Assembly: GCA_020721005.1 (NCBI GenBank)
Contig: DYNP01000003.1
Location: 1-64,000 of the forward strand
Length of the DNA: 64,000 nt
Direction: 5' to 3'
DNA from: Thiomargarita sp.
Lineage (GTDB): Bacteria > Pseudomonadota > Gammaproteobacteria > Beggiatoales > Beggiatoaceae
The notes under the pieces are model-generated. The model made no database searches, was not told the origin of the DNA, and saw only the letters and a program-made list of their open reading frames with translations. Positions 11,001 through 23,337 of the stretch are shown here, piece after piece. Position numbers and translations under genes: made by a program. Position 1 is the stretch's first letter; the number at the start of each line of letters is the position of its first letter.

Positions 11001-11270
11001 ACCTTTATCAGTCCGTTAGGTGAGGCATTGGATCAAGCAATGTCGACGATGATGGTAATAGCAGAAGCAGAAGAAAAACCTCCATTTTTGGAGGAGGTAG
11101 ATAAACTTTACGAAGCCTTGTACAATAAAAACACGCTTGATCTAGAAAGCTCTGATTGGGTCTGGGAAACCGTCGACTGGCATCAAGTTAAACTCGGAAT
11201 AGAGAGCATTTCTCCAATTTTGGAGAATATTACACAGCGGGAATGCAATCTCGACAAATCTTTAACATAA
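8034..11270 (+). CDS. Exported clostripain-family (C11) cysteine peptidase
   Basis: 1078 residues. Start ATG 8034 has GAGGAT just upstream, followed by a signal peptide cut near SAASA/DS. Residues ~160-430 carry the C11 hallmarks: LLAIYMVGSNLESGA strand, catalytic His276 in WDHGAS and catalytic Cys318 in FDACLMA, with DLEPGHGWNW after them. Clostripains cleave after arginine; whether this one does is unknown. The C-terminal half (to 1078) has no domain I recognise and includes a short imperfect repeat, VEILRVEILRGVEISRGVEL, near residue 620. It follows the four InlB-repeat genes on the same strand, so processing of secreted neighbours is a possible job. Its last 21 codons are part of a 215-bp tandem duplication, and a decayed relative lies at 17776-18275. 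Confidence 0.88.
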   Translation: MFTPITYLLLSLLSLMLPISAASADSCPMPTVDSALNLTIPCVGVNGQQYAVELTHIEDTEGDKYWRLHSISESSCDWKINFCATVDEILQVTIPSLSWEGVDSTVKLRNYLPSNATPTDLFWKYVEHAPTKTLLGETDNPGTLHPYHVSAPVTGTGRKLLAIYMVGSNLESGASQAATSDLFELVGGYRQLTDPKIDIIVAFGGSTKDHWPGMKFANITQLLEDANDARFGNNQDYLYRSDTANMGDISSLKHFLNYLRESHLNYDQQFLVFWDHGASYRGFGNDEFYNMKPLSLPDIQRALADSQQHFNLLGFDACLMASLETAKYTHQYADYLLASEDLEPGHGWNWTDVLLAYADYDDIIARGKTIIDHYIKDSSHAYKSSGKTLSLADLSVFPEVEAALLPILKWLASNLTANETPIVTTLSESLQNVRGYSNSHNISLDLKDFLVQLESLTHDITIDPVLKEQFTILLETLNRYLIYSRHDGSRPYSYGTSLDRFDNEPYKVSLHDSLSNLQQTWKTFMSHDQEPPQQVDSSLDVQITGISNVTAEELKLLRDYIEEGTLTAENLPWWEMAYEIMADPQTTLGEKLTIIAALENDSSKSFNGDIIRQYYLKKVEILRVEILRGVEISRGVELLRNRQINTRSAPRSTVDFIAKPLAFTPGTRQNTERTRQIADLPIPAERVAFTAIRGNNSLPETSRSAIILPLTGSVSSFADQTNLTLTAVYGTIYQNPDTGHAQDFDSFAELEVFPTQEAGSYFTYAWNRMWYTIKYSPEHSSLWIPLRFSEHFWKEGTVYTVYTGEIHYRNWQFHYPTPASDEEAEILCTAKGLIAKNQRCYQRAVLELQVDPNNSVVAHYVRPYQIIEQQTLFDKETFSLAVGDEVWFLFDSFGLTPGSSPIQLANTFSAPVVFTQHPVFAVEMMTAVSATTLKPKKFYYAMRATDSAGNITIGDLFPAKTPMPPCAKLEETEETFKEIVTNLLKTPSITFISPLGEALDQAMSTMMVIAEAEEKPPFLEEVDKLYEALYNKNTLDLESSDWVWETVDWHQVKLGIESISPILENITQRECNLDKSLT

Positions 11271-11636
11271 ATGAGGGAAAACCCTTTTAGAAGGGAAGCC
11301 CTCTTATGGAGTCGAGGCTTTAGCCGGCAGATTGGAGTGGAGGCTTTAGCCGGCCGGCCGTAAGCATCACCCCACACACTCAAATTGCGGCACACCTACC
11401 GCTGGCCGGCTAAAGCCTCCACATTTCTCCAATTTTGGAGAATATTACACAGCGGGAATGCAATCTCGACAAATCTTTAACATAAATGAGGGAAAACCCT
11501 TTTAGAAGGGAAGCCCTCTTATGGAGTCGAGGCTTTAGCCGGCAGATTGGAGTGGAGGCTTTAGCCGGCCGGCCGTAAGCATCACCCCACACACTCAAAT
11601 TGCGGCACACCTACCGCTGGCCGGCTAAAGCCTCCA
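11207..11636. repeat. 215-bp perfect tandem duplication
   Basis: Bases 11207-11421 are repeated at 11422-11636. The unit contains the last 21 codons and stop of the C11 peptidase, a short spacer and a hairpin-repeat copy. The second copy regenerates a full hairpin, while the first is cut within its right arm. The identity suggests a very recent event. About 1 kb from 11271 to 12234 has no gene: repeats to about 11900, then a hairpin-rich leader. Confidence 0.9.
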
Positions 11637-11642
11637 CTCCAA
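11547..11642. repeat. Hairpin-repeat unit
   Basis: TTGGAGTGGAGGCTTTAGCC starts the left arm and GGCTAAAGCCTCCACTCCAA ends the right arm, giving a stem of over 20 bp. The arms enclose a conserved loop containing GTAAGCATCACCCCACACAC and GCGGCACACCTACCGCTG. The same unit recurs at 11714-11809 and 18075-18170 and inverted inside 22818-23337. No coding frame; the small minus-strand frames across it are repeat shadows. Confidence 0.9.
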
Positions 11643-11713: not shown

Positions 11714-11809
11714 TTGGAGTGGAGGCTTTAGCCGGCCGGCCGTAAACATCACCCCACACACTCAAATTGCGGCACACCTAGCACTGGCCGGCTAAAGCCT
11801 CCACTCCAA
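11714..11809. repeat. Hairpin-repeat unit
   Basis: Same architecture as 11547-11642, with small loop differences (GTAAACATC, CCTAGCACTGG). It is preceded by AAACTCCTTT, which could serve as the A/T flank of a transcription-terminating hairpin for either strand. Confidence 0.88.
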
Positions 11810-11898
11810 AGTAGCTTAACTGAATAGCAATGCAGCTAAAGCCTCCACTCCAAAGTAGCTTAACTGAATGGCAATGCAGCTATCGCCTCCACTCCAAA
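11797..11898. repeat. 44-bp tandem repeats derived from the hairpin-repeat tail
   Basis: Units beginning GCCTCCACTCCAAAGTAGCT start at 11797 and 11841, with a third partial unit at 11885; each spans CTTAACTGAATRGCAATGCA. The same tail occurs after the hairpin at 18075-18170, linking the two regions. Confidence 0.8.
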
Positions 11899-12062
11899 AA
11901 CAGTACTAACACCTAAAGACAGAAACCCCCACTCCGACGTTTTGGTTGATTCAAGATTCAGTTTTTTATGAGCATTATTATACCGTTCATTCCAAAAAAA
12001 TAGCCGTTAGTCGGAAAATCAGGCTAAATTTTAACTTTTTTTAACTGCTCAACTCCTATAGC

Positions 12063-12193
12063 CAGTGAAAGAGCGTAATATTATTCGATGTACATCCTTC
12101 AAGCGAAAATTAAAGAAGGATGAAACACTGAATTTATACGCCCTTGAACCGTCTTTGCGAAAGCAAAGTTATATCCTTATTTTGAGGATATAA
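12063..12193 (+). promoter_or_regulatory. Structured leader candidate upstream of the giant adhesin gene
   Basis: Three consecutive hairpins lie here: CATCCTTC/GAAGGATG (12093-12100 with 12115-12122); CTTTGC-GAAA-GCAAAG (12153-12168, a GNRA tetraloop); and TTATATCCT/AGGATATAA (12169-12177 with 12185-12193). In addition CAGTG 12063-12067 could pair with CACTG 12126-12130, and GCGTA 12073-12077 with TACGC 12137-12141, which would cross as a pseudoknot. This suggests a folded 5' leader, possibly a riboswitch or thermosensor. I cannot match it to a known family and it lacks the conserved bases of the c-di-GMP-I class. Confidence 0.4.
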
Positions 12194-12234
12194 ACTTCAT
12201 TTTAAGTAATCACTGAGTCTTAAGGAATCAATGT

Positions 12235-12363
12235 ATGAGTTATCATGACCTTACAAGATCTGCCTTTGATAGTGGAGGCAGCGTACGAAAATCCTTCCGA
12301 GAAGTTGTCGGGGGGGGGGACTTTGTCCCTCTATTCTTAACAACCCTCCTGTCCATTCGTTGA
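12235..12363 (+). CDS. 42-codon leader frame ending after a G10 tract; possible phase-variable 5' end
   Basis: ATG at 12235 sits 8 bases after AAGGA (12222-12226), the best ribosome site in the region. The frame runs 42 codons through a G10 run (12310-12319) to TGA at 12361-12363, which overlaps the TTG start of the giant protein. Gain of one G (or loss of two) would join this frame to the downstream gene with no intervening stop, adding 42 residues ahead of the signal-like segment. It is either a coupled leader peptide, a phase-variable start, or a homopolymer sequencing error. Confidence 0.5.
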   Translation: MSYHDLTRSAFDSGGSVRKSFREVVGGGDFVPLFLTTLLSIR

Positions 12364-15300
12364 CTAAGAAGTTGTTGGCAGCGGGGTTGTATGGGTGCTT
12401 GGCGTGGTCGTCGATGGTGGCAGCACAGACGGCACTTCCTCCGCCACTTCCCCCGTCAATATACACTTTTGCGGAACCTGTAACAGGCAATCCAATCAAT
12501 GATACTGTTAACAATACAATTCTTCCTGTTAACGATACTCGGTTGGACCTTACTGGTGGCACCAACTTTACCTTGGCTGTTTGTGCTGAACAAACGCAAC
12601 GCAACGTCGGTTATGCCAGTGTCATCATGGCCAAGAGAAGACAATATCATGGTTGGATGCTTGGTCTTGAGGGTGCATCAGGAAATGCAGGCGATACTGG
12701 AATACTGAAATTTAAAACCCAAGGCACAACTGGCGATCCTTTGGTGTCTAATTTCAGTCTGGCCTTAAACACTCGATATCATATCGCGGTAGTTTTTAGT
12801 GGGGGTCAAGCCACTATTTTCATAGATGGCGAACGAGATGCAACTCGTGCTATACCAGCACCTACGGCACCACCAAATCCTGTCAATTTCCGAGTTGGTC
12901 ACGAAACAGCAGATGTCTTGATTGATGCTGGCCATCCTCAGCGTTGGCATGGTACTCTCAGAGACGTCAATGTCTTCAATATTGCCTTGAATCAAGAACA
13001 ACTCCAGGTATTGAGTGATCGATGCAATCCACCTCCTCCACCTCCTGTTCCTACTCCAGAATGTCGGGAGATTATCGGGGAGCAAATTGCTGCTGATGGC
13101 ACCGTAACCCAGCCAGGGGTTATCGAAAACCTATTGGCTTGTTACCCGCTGATTAACAACTTGCAAGACGGGCATGATACTACTCCTGGAGCCATTCTTC
13201 ATCATGGCGCTCTCAACGACAACGGTACGCAAAGACATGTAATTTACCAAGACCCTCAAGGCACCAGAGTTCGTCAAGCCATGTATTTTGATGGCAGTAC
13301 TTTTGTCGAGATTCCGATGCACCCGGAGTTTATGTTCAAGTCCGGCAAACCCTTTAGCTTTGCACTCTGGGCTGTTTTTGACAATAGCTTGCATTATAAT
13401 CCGTTGCTGAAGTTATCTGACACTGACGGCGCACCTCAGGCAGGTTTGGCCAAACGGCCTTATTTTGACCACCGAGGGAGAATCCTGGCACGGTTAGCGA
13501 CTGCTGCTAACCAAACCAATGTCTTTTCTGAAGAGCGTGGTGGCGAATTACTTAGAAATGATCAGTTAGAACATGAAAAGGCATGGATCCACATTGCTGG
13601 CGTATTTGATGGAGGAGAATTGACACTCTATGTGGATGGACAACCACAATGGTACCGTGATCAGAATGGGAGATGGTTAACCGCCAAACGCTTGCCCTTT
13701 TTTGACTTTGCTAATGGCACTGACATGAGATTACGCATTGGTGCTAATGCCAATCCATTGTTTCCAACTCGCCATAAAGGGTATATAAGCAGCGTTCTCA
13801 TTTATGACCGGGCTTTGGATAATGGTGAAGTTCAGACTCTCGCCGGTGCTACAGATGGTTTGGAAAACATACCTTTCGCAGATGACCCTTGTGTACATGC
13901 AGCCACCGTCACCTCTGACAAGGATGGTCAATGGCAAAATGGCGACACCTGGACGCCAGCTCGTCCTGGAGGTCCAGGACCCAATGATTGGGTACTCATC
14001 CGGGCATTTCATACCGTCACCATGCCTCCAGAAATGAGAGCGGCTGCTGACAGACGAAATGTCACTGGCCTGTGCATAGAAAGAGATGCAACGTTACAAA
14101 GTGCCCCCGGTGGTTCCGTAGCATTAACACCACAGTTTTTCCATAACCGTGGTAGAGTCAGAGGACAAGACGCTTCTCCAGTAGGAGGACGTGTGTTCAT
14201 TAATAATTCCCAATGGTTTGTCAACAATGGCAGAATCGTCTCTGGCAGTGGCAGTAAACCCGGGGCCCGTGGCGGTCGCATAATAATTAATGCGAACTTC
14301 ATTCGTAACTGGGGACGGATACAAGGTGGCGATGGCCAAGATGGCTTTTGCTGGCCAAATAAGATCAATGCCCAACCAGGTGGTTATGTCACCGTCAGAA
14401 CCAATGCTACCAATAGAAATTTCATCAACTTGGGACAAATTGTCGGCGGTAATGGCGGTGCTGTTCCCAAGGCTTGCCGAGAAGTCGGTCTAGTACCGGG
14501 TGTTGGCGGTTGGGTAGTTGCCAACGCGGGCCAACAACGTGGCATCATTCAAGGTCGCGGTGGAGTATGGGCGGATCCTGCCGAACTGATATTTGACGAT
14601 CGCACCCAAATCGATGGCGAAAATGTTTTCGTTGTGGCCGGTGAAGACAACACTATAGAAGCCAATAACTTACTCAGCGATGCGATTCTTGCTGAAAAAG
14701 TCTTAACAGTTGCTGTGGGTCCCGATGGCATCTTGGATCTCAGCCAAGTTGCTGATCAGTCTTTTAGAGCTGGAGAAGAAATCAAATTGTTTGTGGACGC
14801 TGGAAACTTATTGCTTCCCCCAGACAAAACTGTGGAAGATATATTTGACGCTCCAATTTTAACTCAATCTCGTGGCAAAGTGCTTTACTTTGCCACTTGG
14901 AACACTGAGGAAGTGGTCGCTGGTGAACCCAATGCCACCGTGACTTTACCATTGAATCTATTCAATGCAGGTCCCGCGGACGACACCTACACCATCACTG
15001 TTCAAGACAGTCAAGGCTGGTCATTATGCACCTTGCCTGCCACTGTCAGTTTAGACAGTCAAGCCGACACTGATTTAAATTGTGAACTGACTTTGCCAGA
15101 AACCACGGGCGTGAATAATGTGATCACCGTCACTGCCACTTCCGAAAATGATCCCGACATGCAAGCAATTGCAGAAATCGAAGTCTATGTGGGTGAATTG
15201 CCAACTCCACCGTTAGCACCAGCCAATGCCTTCCCTTATGCAGTTTCTGGTATGGTGATCAACTCGGAAGAACAACCGATTATGGGTGTCAAGATCCAGA

Positions 15301-16871
15301 TCGGTGAATTCACAGCCCTGACCGATGAAGATGGTTATTGGGAAATTGCTGAAGTGCCCGAAGGGAAATACCCGGTCATCGTCACCAAAGAGGGTTATTC
15401 CTTTGATTTTGAAAAAGAAGTTGAGGTGGGTAACAGCGACATGACTCTGGCAATCATCGGCAATTCCCTACTTGCTCTGAAAGTTCAAGCCCCCACTTTG
15501 GTTGAACAAAGAGCAGATATCACCTATCAATTCATCGTGGCCAATCAAGGCGAGGTGACAACCACTGGCATCACGTTAGCCCTAGAGCCTTCTTCAGATG
15601 TGACAATATTGAAACTGACCGGGGGAACGGGACTGAATTGCCAACTGGAAACTCTAAGTTGCACTTTATCCTCTTTACTCCCTGGAAAAACGGCCACCGC
15701 CACATTTGTGGTGAACAATATAGGCAAGGACACCTTGGCACATAAGGCTACTTTAAGTTCCCAAAATTATCCACCCGAGGTTCGTATCATTGAAACCAAA
15801 GTCAGACCTGACTTGTGGGTCAATGTCCGATGCCAACCCAACCCTGTGGTTATGTTGGAAAAGTTGCAATGTGTGGTCACGGTACAGCTCAATGACACAG
15901 CGGAAGAAACGGCTACGGGAATTCAGTTGTCTCTTCCCAAACCCATGGGTTTGGAAATCTTAGATGTCACAACCCCTGCTGGGAACAAGTGCGATTCTTC
16001 CAACTCCAACCTCATTTCTTGCACCTTGGCTGACCTTAACAAAGGCAAGTCCACGACAGTCACTCTTGACATGAAACTGTATGATGCGGGCATGTTACTG
16101 GTGAGACAACAGGGCATTACTTATGCCAACAATTACTCAAGCGATAATGGTGGTGGGAATGCCACGATATTTATTCCCGAACACATCAAAGCTGATCTAT
16201 TGGTACTGGTTGACACCACCGGCAGCATGCAAGTGGAATTGGACAGTGTCATCGCCGCCTTTAAACAATTCATCAGCAATCTACCTGACAGTCCGCCCTT
16301 AACCATGGCACTGATAGAATTTAAGGATGATGTCAGAGTGAAAGCATTCACTCAAAATCCCCAAATCCTATTGGAAGCTTTGGAAGGACTGGTTGTGGAA
16401 GGCGGTGGTTTGTGCCCAGAAGCCTCAGCAGAAGCCTTGGAAATTGCTTTGCGGCATGTGAAAGAAGGAGGCACTATCCTGTTATCCACGGATGCTTCTC
16501 CTTACCCAGAAACTGACCTAAATGCGTTGGGAACACTGATCAAGGAGAAAAAAGCTCAATTGCATACCATTATCTCCGGAGATTGCATGGTGACAGACAG
16601 CCAAAATGCAGTATCTGAAGACATGGAAGCCACTCCGGTAACCGAGGAAACTCAGGATTCTGAGACCTCAAACAATTCAGGAGAAGACTCAGGAACTGAA
16701 ACTTCAACCAATCCCGAGGAATCTCAGGAAACTGAAGGCTCAACCAGTCCCGAAGAATCTCAGACTGAAGGCTCAACCCAGTCTGGAGAAAATTTGGCAA
16801 CTGAAACTCCAAATGAAACAGTGACTGTTCCAGAAACAGTAAGTTCAGAAAATTCGGAGGAAAATCCATAA
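12360..16871 (+). CDS. Giant exported LamG / vWA adhesin-like protein
   Basis: 1503 residues counted from TTG 12360; this start has no clear ribosome site, and the real 5' end may be at 12235 (see leader frame). A signal peptide (KKLLAAGLYGCLAWSSMVAA) is followed by two LamG-like concanavalin folds (about 40-225 and 260-505), a glycine-rich stretch with NNGRI/RNWGRI repeats (about 590-760, probably beta-helical), an Ig-like domain, a carboxypeptidase-regulatory-type domain (VSGMVINSEEQPIMGVKIQI, about 960-1030), two DUF11-like domains, and a von Willebrand A domain with a MIDAS-type DTTGSM (Asp1285). The last ~80 residues are a Glu/Ser/Thr-rich tail with PEESQ/TEGS repeats. No wall anchor or autotransporter barrel is visible. 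Probably secreted or surface-held; adhesion is inferred. Confidence 0.85.
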   Translation: MTKKLLAAGLYGCLAWSSMVAAQTALPPPLPPSIYTFAEPVTGNPINDTVNNTILPVNDTRLDLTGGTNFTLAVCAEQTQRNVGYASVIMAKRRQYHGWMLGLEGASGNAGDTGILKFKTQGTTGDPLVSNFSLALNTRYHIAVVFSGGQATIFIDGERDATRAIPAPTAPPNPVNFRVGHETADVLIDAGHPQRWHGTLRDVNVFNIALNQEQLQVLSDRCNPPPPPPVPTPECREIIGEQIAADGTVTQPGVIENLLACYPLINNLQDGHDTTPGAILHHGALNDNGTQRHVIYQDPQGTRVRQAMYFDGSTFVEIPMHPEFMFKSGKPFSFALWAVFDNSLHYNPLLKLSDTDGAPQAGLAKRPYFDHRGRILARLATAANQTNVFSEERGGELLRNDQLEHEKAWIHIAGVFDGGELTLYVDGQPQWYRDQNGRWLTAKRLPFFDFANGTDMRLRIGANANPLFPTRHKGYISSVLIYDRALDNGEVQTLAGATDGLENIPFADDPCVHAATVTSDKDGQWQNGDTWTPARPGGPGPNDWVLIRAFHTVTMPPEMRAAADRRNVTGLCIERDATLQSAPGGSVALTPQFFHNRGRVRGQDASPVGGRVFINNSQWFVNNGRIVSGSGSKPGARGGRIIINANFIRNWGRIQGGDGQDGFCWPNKINAQPGGYVTVRTNATNRNFINLGQIVGGNGGAVPKACREVGLVPGVGGWVVANAGQQRGIIQGRGGVWADPAELIFDDRTQIDGENVFVVAGEDNTIEANNLLSDAILAEKVLTVAVGPDGILDLSQVADQSFRAGEEIKLFVDAGNLLLPPDKTVEDIFDAPILTQSRGKVLYFATWNTEEVVAGEPNATVTLPLNLFNAGPADDTYTITVQDSQGWSLCTLPATVSLDSQADTDLNCELTLPETTGVNNVITVTATSENDPDMQAIAEIEVYVGELPTPPLAPANAFPYAVSGMVINSEEQPIMGVKIQIGEFTALTDEDGYWEIAEVPEGKYPVIVTKEGYSFDFEKEVEVGNSDMTLAIIGNSLLALKVQAPTLVEQRADITYQFIVANQGEVTTTGITLALEPSSDVTILKLTGGTGLNCQLETLSCTLSSLLPGKTATATFVVNNIGKDTLAHKATLSSQNYPPEVRIIETKVRPDLWVNVRCQPNPVVMLEKLQCVVTVQLNDTAEETATGIQLSLPKPMGLEILDVTTPAGNKCDSSNSNLISCTLADLNKGKSTTVTLDMKLYDAGMLLVRQQGITYANNYSSDNGGGNATIFIPEHIKADLLVLVDTTGSMQVELDSVIAAFKQFISNLPDSPPLTMALIEFKDDVRVKAFTQNPQILLEALEGLVVEGGGLCPEASAEALEIALRHVKEGGTILLSTDASPYPETDLNALGTLIKEKKAQLHTIISGDCMVTDSQNAVSEDMEATPVTEETQDSETSNNSGEDSGTETSTNPEESQETEGSTSPEESQTEGSTQSGENLATETPNETVTVPETVSSENSEENP

Positions 16872-22817: not shown

Positions 22818-23337
22818 TAGACCTCTTGCAAAAGTAAATGATGCGATAAAGGTGAGATACGAAAAAATAAAAGGGAAATCTCCTTTGGAATGAAGGCTTT
22901 AGCCGGTAAGTTGGAGTGGAGGTTTTAGCCAGTAAGTTGGAATGGAGGCTTTAGCCAGCAAGTTGGAATGGAGGTTTTAGCCAGTAAGTTGGAGTGGAGG
23001 CTTTAGCCAGTAAGTTGGAATGGAGGCTTTAGCCGGTAAGTTGGAATGGAGGTTTTAGCCAGTAAGTTGGAATGGAGGCTTTAGCCGGTAAGTTGGAATG
23101 GAGGCTTTAGCCGGTAAGTTGGAATGGAGGCTTTAGCCGGTAAGTTGGAATGGAGGCTTTAGCCGGCCAGCGGTAGATCCTTGCAATTTGTGTATATGGG
23201 GTGATGCTTACCGCTGACCGGCTAAAGCTTCCACTCCAAGGACCTACCGCTGGCCGGCTAAAGCCTCCACTCCAACATATCTTAACTGATCGGCAACCCT
23301 CATTTTTTCATGATCGCATACTTTTGCAAAAGGTCTA
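22818..23337. repeat. Complete hairpin-repeat element with terminal inverted repeats
   Basis: The ends are TAGACCTCTTGCAAAAGTA (22818-22836) and, inverted, TACTTTTGCAAAAGGTCTA (23319-23337): 18 of 19 bases agree. Inside are eleven 26-bp tandem units (22885-23170) of the form TTGGAATGGAGGCTTTAGCC plus GGTAAG. These are followed by the loop sequence of the hairpin unit in reverse orientation (about 23165-23215) and two inverted units (GGCTAAAGCYTCCACTCCAA) near 23220-23276. It encodes no protein, so it behaves like a non-autonomous, MITE-like element. A related right end is at 1-182. Most of the gap 22720-23364 is this element. Confidence 0.85.

Follow-up and report, generated by a model that had tools for sequence, protein, structure and literature searches.

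A possible poly-G contingency locus at the start of a large adhesin gene in Thiomargarita

Where does translation of a 1503-codon adhesin gene of a Thiomargarita sp. begin, and could a run of ten G residues ahead of it switch its expression? The gene lies in the window, by which the whole stretch of 64,000 nucleotides analysed here (contig DYNP01000003.1, positions 1 to 64,000) is meant. The sequence-only reading had described a ribosome site and ATG (12222-12237) opening a 42-codon frame that crosses G10 and stops over the TTG of the adhesin gene, and this anatomy was confirmed base by base. The features of the region, all on the forward strand, are as follows.

12221-12226, +: Shine-Dalgarno-like (SD) site TAAGGA, 8 nt ahead of ATG 12235 (from sequence)
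12235-12363, +: 42-codon frame from ATG 12235 to TGA 12361-12363, crossing G10 (from sequence, the search for homologues and codon score)
12245-12340, +: 31-codon frame from ATG 12245, crossing the tract, with no SD of its own (from codon score and the search for homologues)
12310-12319, +: G10 homopolymer, candidate slippage tract, one of five G10 runs genome-wide, with none longer
12317-12329, +: possible small hairpin GGGAC-TTT-GTCCC that uses the end of the tract (from folding)
12360-12428, +: signal-peptide-like segment MTKKLLAAGLYGCLAWSSMVAAQ from TTG 12360 (from translation, judged by eye)
12360-16871, +: 1503-codon ORF for a large surface protein with Laminin_G_3, CarboxypepD_reg-like, DUF11 and VWA domains

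The stop codon TGA (12361-12363) overlaps TTG 12360-12362 as TTGA. Adding one G to the tract (G11) leaves the frame from ATG 12235 open into the 1503-codon ORF, which bears out the proposal that one extra G fuses the two frames with no stop between them, and removing two (G8) does the same; with G9 this frame hits a stop shortly past the tract. The adhesin frame itself opens only at about 12273, and ATG, GTG and TTG are absent between that point and 12360. ATG 12235 is the only upstream SD-ATG, a change of one G joins it to the adhesin, and with this start the tract stands between the start codon and the rest of the gene. A further ATG, at 12245, overlaps as ATGA the stop codon of a 5-codon ORF that begins at ATG 12231, and its frame would join the adhesin ORF with G9. 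The G10 tract is the sole run of at least 9 in the window. No promoter or terminator was found in a scan of 11900-12500, and the idea that the leader is a repeat element was ruled out, as the genome holds no further copy.

The gene is a plausible target for switching, since its Pfam domains and signal peptide mark it as a surface gene. Relatives of parts of the adhesin, chiefly of its second half, were found in 20 of the 40 genomes searched, and several paralogues are present in its own genome; the relatives in the 40 genomes are at the level of domains, with no orthologue sharing the same N-terminus. The genomes searched span 25 genera of a single family, the number published for Beggiatoaceae (PMC11172852), and one named relative is a Thiomargarita, which makes Beggiatoaceae the probable family. 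The nearest paralogue starts at an SD-GTG without a tract, which was counted against a contingency locus. The window also contains repeats of other kinds. For example, 215 bp are duplicated exactly (100%) in tandem at 11207-11637, upstream of the adhesin, covering the 3' end of a clostripain-family gene and the intergenic region that follows it, and a 26-bp unit, TTGGAATGGAGGCTTTAGCCGGTAAG, is arrayed in 10.8 copies at 22885-23166, with related CTCCACTCCAA/GGCTTTAGCC units at 1-95 and 11791-11898. The heptamer TAACTGA, known from direct repeats in marine Beggiatoaceae (PMC4679880), occurs 24 times in the window against 8.8 expected, mostly as single copies, and no shuffle reached 24.

The best single account of the locus, which we hold tentatively and at just under an even chance, is an ordinary poly-G translational contingency locus that was assembled in its OFF frame. 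Translation would start at the SD and ATG 12235, and G10 would lie in an amino-terminal extension that precedes the signal peptide. Slipped-strand mispairing would alter the tract by one G, so that G11 (or G8) would be the ON state, with the start joined to the adhesin frame, and G10 the OFF state, ending over the TTG and perhaps leaky via re-initiation at this overlapping codon. ATG 12235 would thus be the real start, the tract would vary in the population and its state would change the cell surface. Breaks at G/C runs in further surface genes of this genome make a slippage on/off switch probable.

The strongest competitor, which we judge less likely, is a start of the gene at TTG 12360 with a merely incidental tract, the 42-codon frame being either noise or a short coupled re-initiation leader. 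A complete signal peptide, MTKKLLAAGLYGCLAWSSMVAAQ, with KK, a hydrophobic core and an AxA-like end, begins at this TTG, and the stop/start overlap expected of a coupled leader is present at 12360-12363. However, the second ribosome site of such a leader is missing: no SD-like or purine-rich site precedes the TTG, where the sequence is pyrimidine-rich (CCTCCTGTCC). Because an SD by the criterion used here precedes only 8 of 22 unambiguous starts sampled from the genome, this absence is a weak argument on its own. None of the same 22 starts is a TTG, so TTG starts look rare in this genome, although the sample is small. A start at ATG 12235 would give the fused protein an n-region of about 47 residues, which is long even by comparison with other exoproteins; n-regions of about 27 and about 36 residues are nevertheless found at SD starts, in the nearest paralogue and in another very large exoprotein, which makes a longer amino terminus of the adhesin plausible.

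The codon scores settle nothing on the choice of start. The part of the 42-codon frame before the tract ranks at the 6th percentile among coding windows, a weak signal that suits a TTG start, but the coding region just past TTG 12360 scores no better, and of the three frames ahead of the tract the one from ATG 12245 scores best (0.14). Searches with the 42- and 31-codon peptides returned no convincing homologues.

The number of such runs is also in keeping with an incidental tract and a TTG start, as G10 itself is unremarkable and at chance level. In the 4.05 Mb genome, G/C runs of at least 8, 9, 10 and 11 number 97, 25, 5 and 0, whereas dinucleotide frequencies predict about 132, 36, 9.5 and 2.6. 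The G10 at 12310-12319 is long enough for a contingency homopolymer (at least 7-8 units), but the genome-wide excess of tracts that is usual for contingency loci is not seen. Furthermore, the genome has intact MutS and MutL, which would lower slippage and was counted against a contingency locus.

The position of the tract, by contrast, is probably beyond chance. A scan on both strands scored every G/C run for an SD plus ATG or GTG within 120 bases upstream, whose frame passes the run and ends within 60 codons, and for another frame that is open past the run for at least 110 codons, has a signal-peptide-like beginning and lacks an SD start of its own. For runs of at least 8, this architecture turned up in 2 of the 162 strand tests, where about 0.15 would be expected, and for control runs of 3-7 (504 kb) in 20 of 21,819. 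A hand calculation gives a Poisson p of about 0.01, a value that is only indicative because the test was designed after the cases were known.

The second case found by the scan is on contig C20, where a C9 tract lies 20 bases past an SD-ATG and is followed by a 2335-codon ORF carrying RHS/YD-shell domains. Two more loci carry the C20 leader, on C133 (96% identical) and C112 (78%), and the three paralogues (L178 = G000:C20, L179 = G000:C133 and L180 = G000:C112) share a near-identical promoter, SD and ATG. Their tract regions differ, being C9, CCCCCCACCG and C8 in C20, C133 and C112, respectively, and the alignment of C20 with C133, about 300 bases long, has a single indel, which falls in the tract. 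In all three leaders the ATG and the surface ORF are out of frame. The protein stretch between tract and signal peptide is similar in C20 and C112; several of the base differences are synonymous, and the one indel measures 3 bases. Since the frame of this conserved stretch holds no start codon, its translation should come from the ATG through the tract. That this family codes ahead of any in-frame start speaks against a TTG start for the adhesin. On the other hand, the C112 gene is truncated at 110 codons and the C133 tract is interrupted, which suggests that part of the leader family may be decaying; decay would also fit the OFF frame seen in each of the genome's four start-proximal cases. 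The nearest relative in another genus has a plain SD-ATG start without a tract.

Breaks at G/C runs also occur elsewhere in the genome. At eight places among the tracts of at least 8, a change of one unit in length markedly lengthens an ORF. Inspection left the window, the C20 and C112 leaders, a haemagglutinin and a methyltransferase; an RnfA-like gene, a HemB-like gene and two overlapping genes, where the ORF also gained length at the tract, were dismissed since they have ordinary starts after the tract. The haemagglutinin-like exoprotein with a TPS domain (L181:4026-6489, minus strand, G000:C104) is split at G8 between repeats, and the methyltransferase (L111:15340-16120, G000:C108) is broken at G9 inside SAM motif I. 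The latter is surrounded by genes for UDP-GlcNAc 2-epimerase, NeuB, nucleotidyl and cytidylyl transferases and DegT aminotransferases, a nonulosonate cluster. About 5 kb further on, a second methyltransferase (L238) reads through a G10. An automatic codon-bias search for split genes at the 97 tracts flagged one natural gene overlap and one false case only; as it missed both mid-gene breaks, these rest on the SAM motif and the repeats.

A less probable explanation of the locus, which we regard as doubtful, is an assembly miscount: the tract would in fact be fixed at G11, and ATG 12235 would simply be the start of a gene product with a long n-region. The assembly is a draft of 133 contigs, G10 is among its longest runs and, as noted above, other exoproteins have long n-regions too. 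However, 42 readings of tracts of 8-10 G/C are intact in other ORFs, two of them G10 and one the second tract of the C20 gene itself; these ORFs are mostly housekeeping and signalling genes, and the intact readings indicate that the general homopolymer error is low. Moreover, the breaks cluster in surface genes, unlike error: about 7 of the 42 intact readings appear by eye to be surface-related, compared with all four broken loci (the window, C20, the haemagglutinin and the methyltransferase), although these classes were drawn post hoc.

The tracts of related genomes offer no parallel, since the SD-ATG/tract architecture was found at none of their tracts of at least G10 and most of their coding tracts read through. 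In one relative an uppS-like gene begins with ATG-C12 and stays in frame, which means that the closeness of a tract to a start codon is not evidence in itself. Runs of at least G10 are more numerous in two relatives (G007 and G013) than in the genome of the window, and the longest G/C run in the family search has 14 bases (L222, G013:C175).

The case for a poly-G contingency locus can therefore be upheld in part. The frame logic of the proposed phase switch is right, and other frame-breaking G/C tracts in surface genes of the genome lend it indirect support; the missing homologue of the 42-codon peptide, its weak codon signal, the lack of a tract excess, the intact MutS and MutL and the signal peptide at the TTG speak against it. 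A more elaborate version, quite improbable in our estimate, is a three-frame switch in which G11 would join ATG 12235, G9 would join the coupled ATG 12245 and G10 would leave nothing but re-initiation at the TTG. The length of the tract would then determine how much adhesin is made and with which amino terminus, and the locus would be one of several surface loci that make up a small phasome of this free-living sulfur bacterium. Least probable of all is recoding, in which transcriptional or ribosomal slippage on G10 would yield a fixed share of fused protein from unchanged DNA: the GGGAC/GTCCC hairpin lies directly past a long G run, but the region that includes it folds only slightly better than shuffles (z-score -1.4), and the C-tract paralogues require different frame changes, with one tract interrupted.

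Tract-based phase variation has been described mainly in host-adapted bacteria. If the poly-G contingency reading is true, a free-living sulfur bacterium would possess a small set of switches in adhesins, exoproteins and surface glycans, which would point to clonal diversification against phages, grazers or mat neighbours. In the literature searched, no poly-G contingency locus is reported for Beggiatoaceae, and the papers on this family found to mention phase variation treat it in general terms or for other repeats only (PMC4679880, PMC4853749). In Neisseria meningitidis, an organism with MutS and MutL, tracts of 8 or more are likewise found in surface genes and are those that mostly vary, but there the polymorphism was verified by re-sequencing and simple sequence repeats exceed random expectation, unlike here (PMC5084427). 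For UspA1 of Moraxella catarrhalis, as the work is summarised in a later paper, G9 or G10 at the 5' end of an adhesin gene similarly changes expression, although that tract is located 30 nt ahead of the start codon and its effect is on transcription, whereas the present one lies between the start codon and the signal peptide (Lafontaine 2001, in PMC4679880). The poly-G/C genes of Campylobacter, whose phasome was delimited with a G/C tract cut-off of at least 7, differ in having many tracts and documented variation in their length, while here there is one assembly, no excess and mismatch repair is present (PMC6321876). They resemble the Thiomargarita loci in having G/C tracts of 7-11 in surface and glycan genes that depend on frame, and SAM-dependent methyltransferases and a haemagglutinin are listed in both, those of Campylobacter with G8-10 and the haemagglutinin being filamentous (PMC6321876). 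Should the G10 tract vary, it would add to these systems a further poly-G locus of a familiar type, in Beggiatoaceae.
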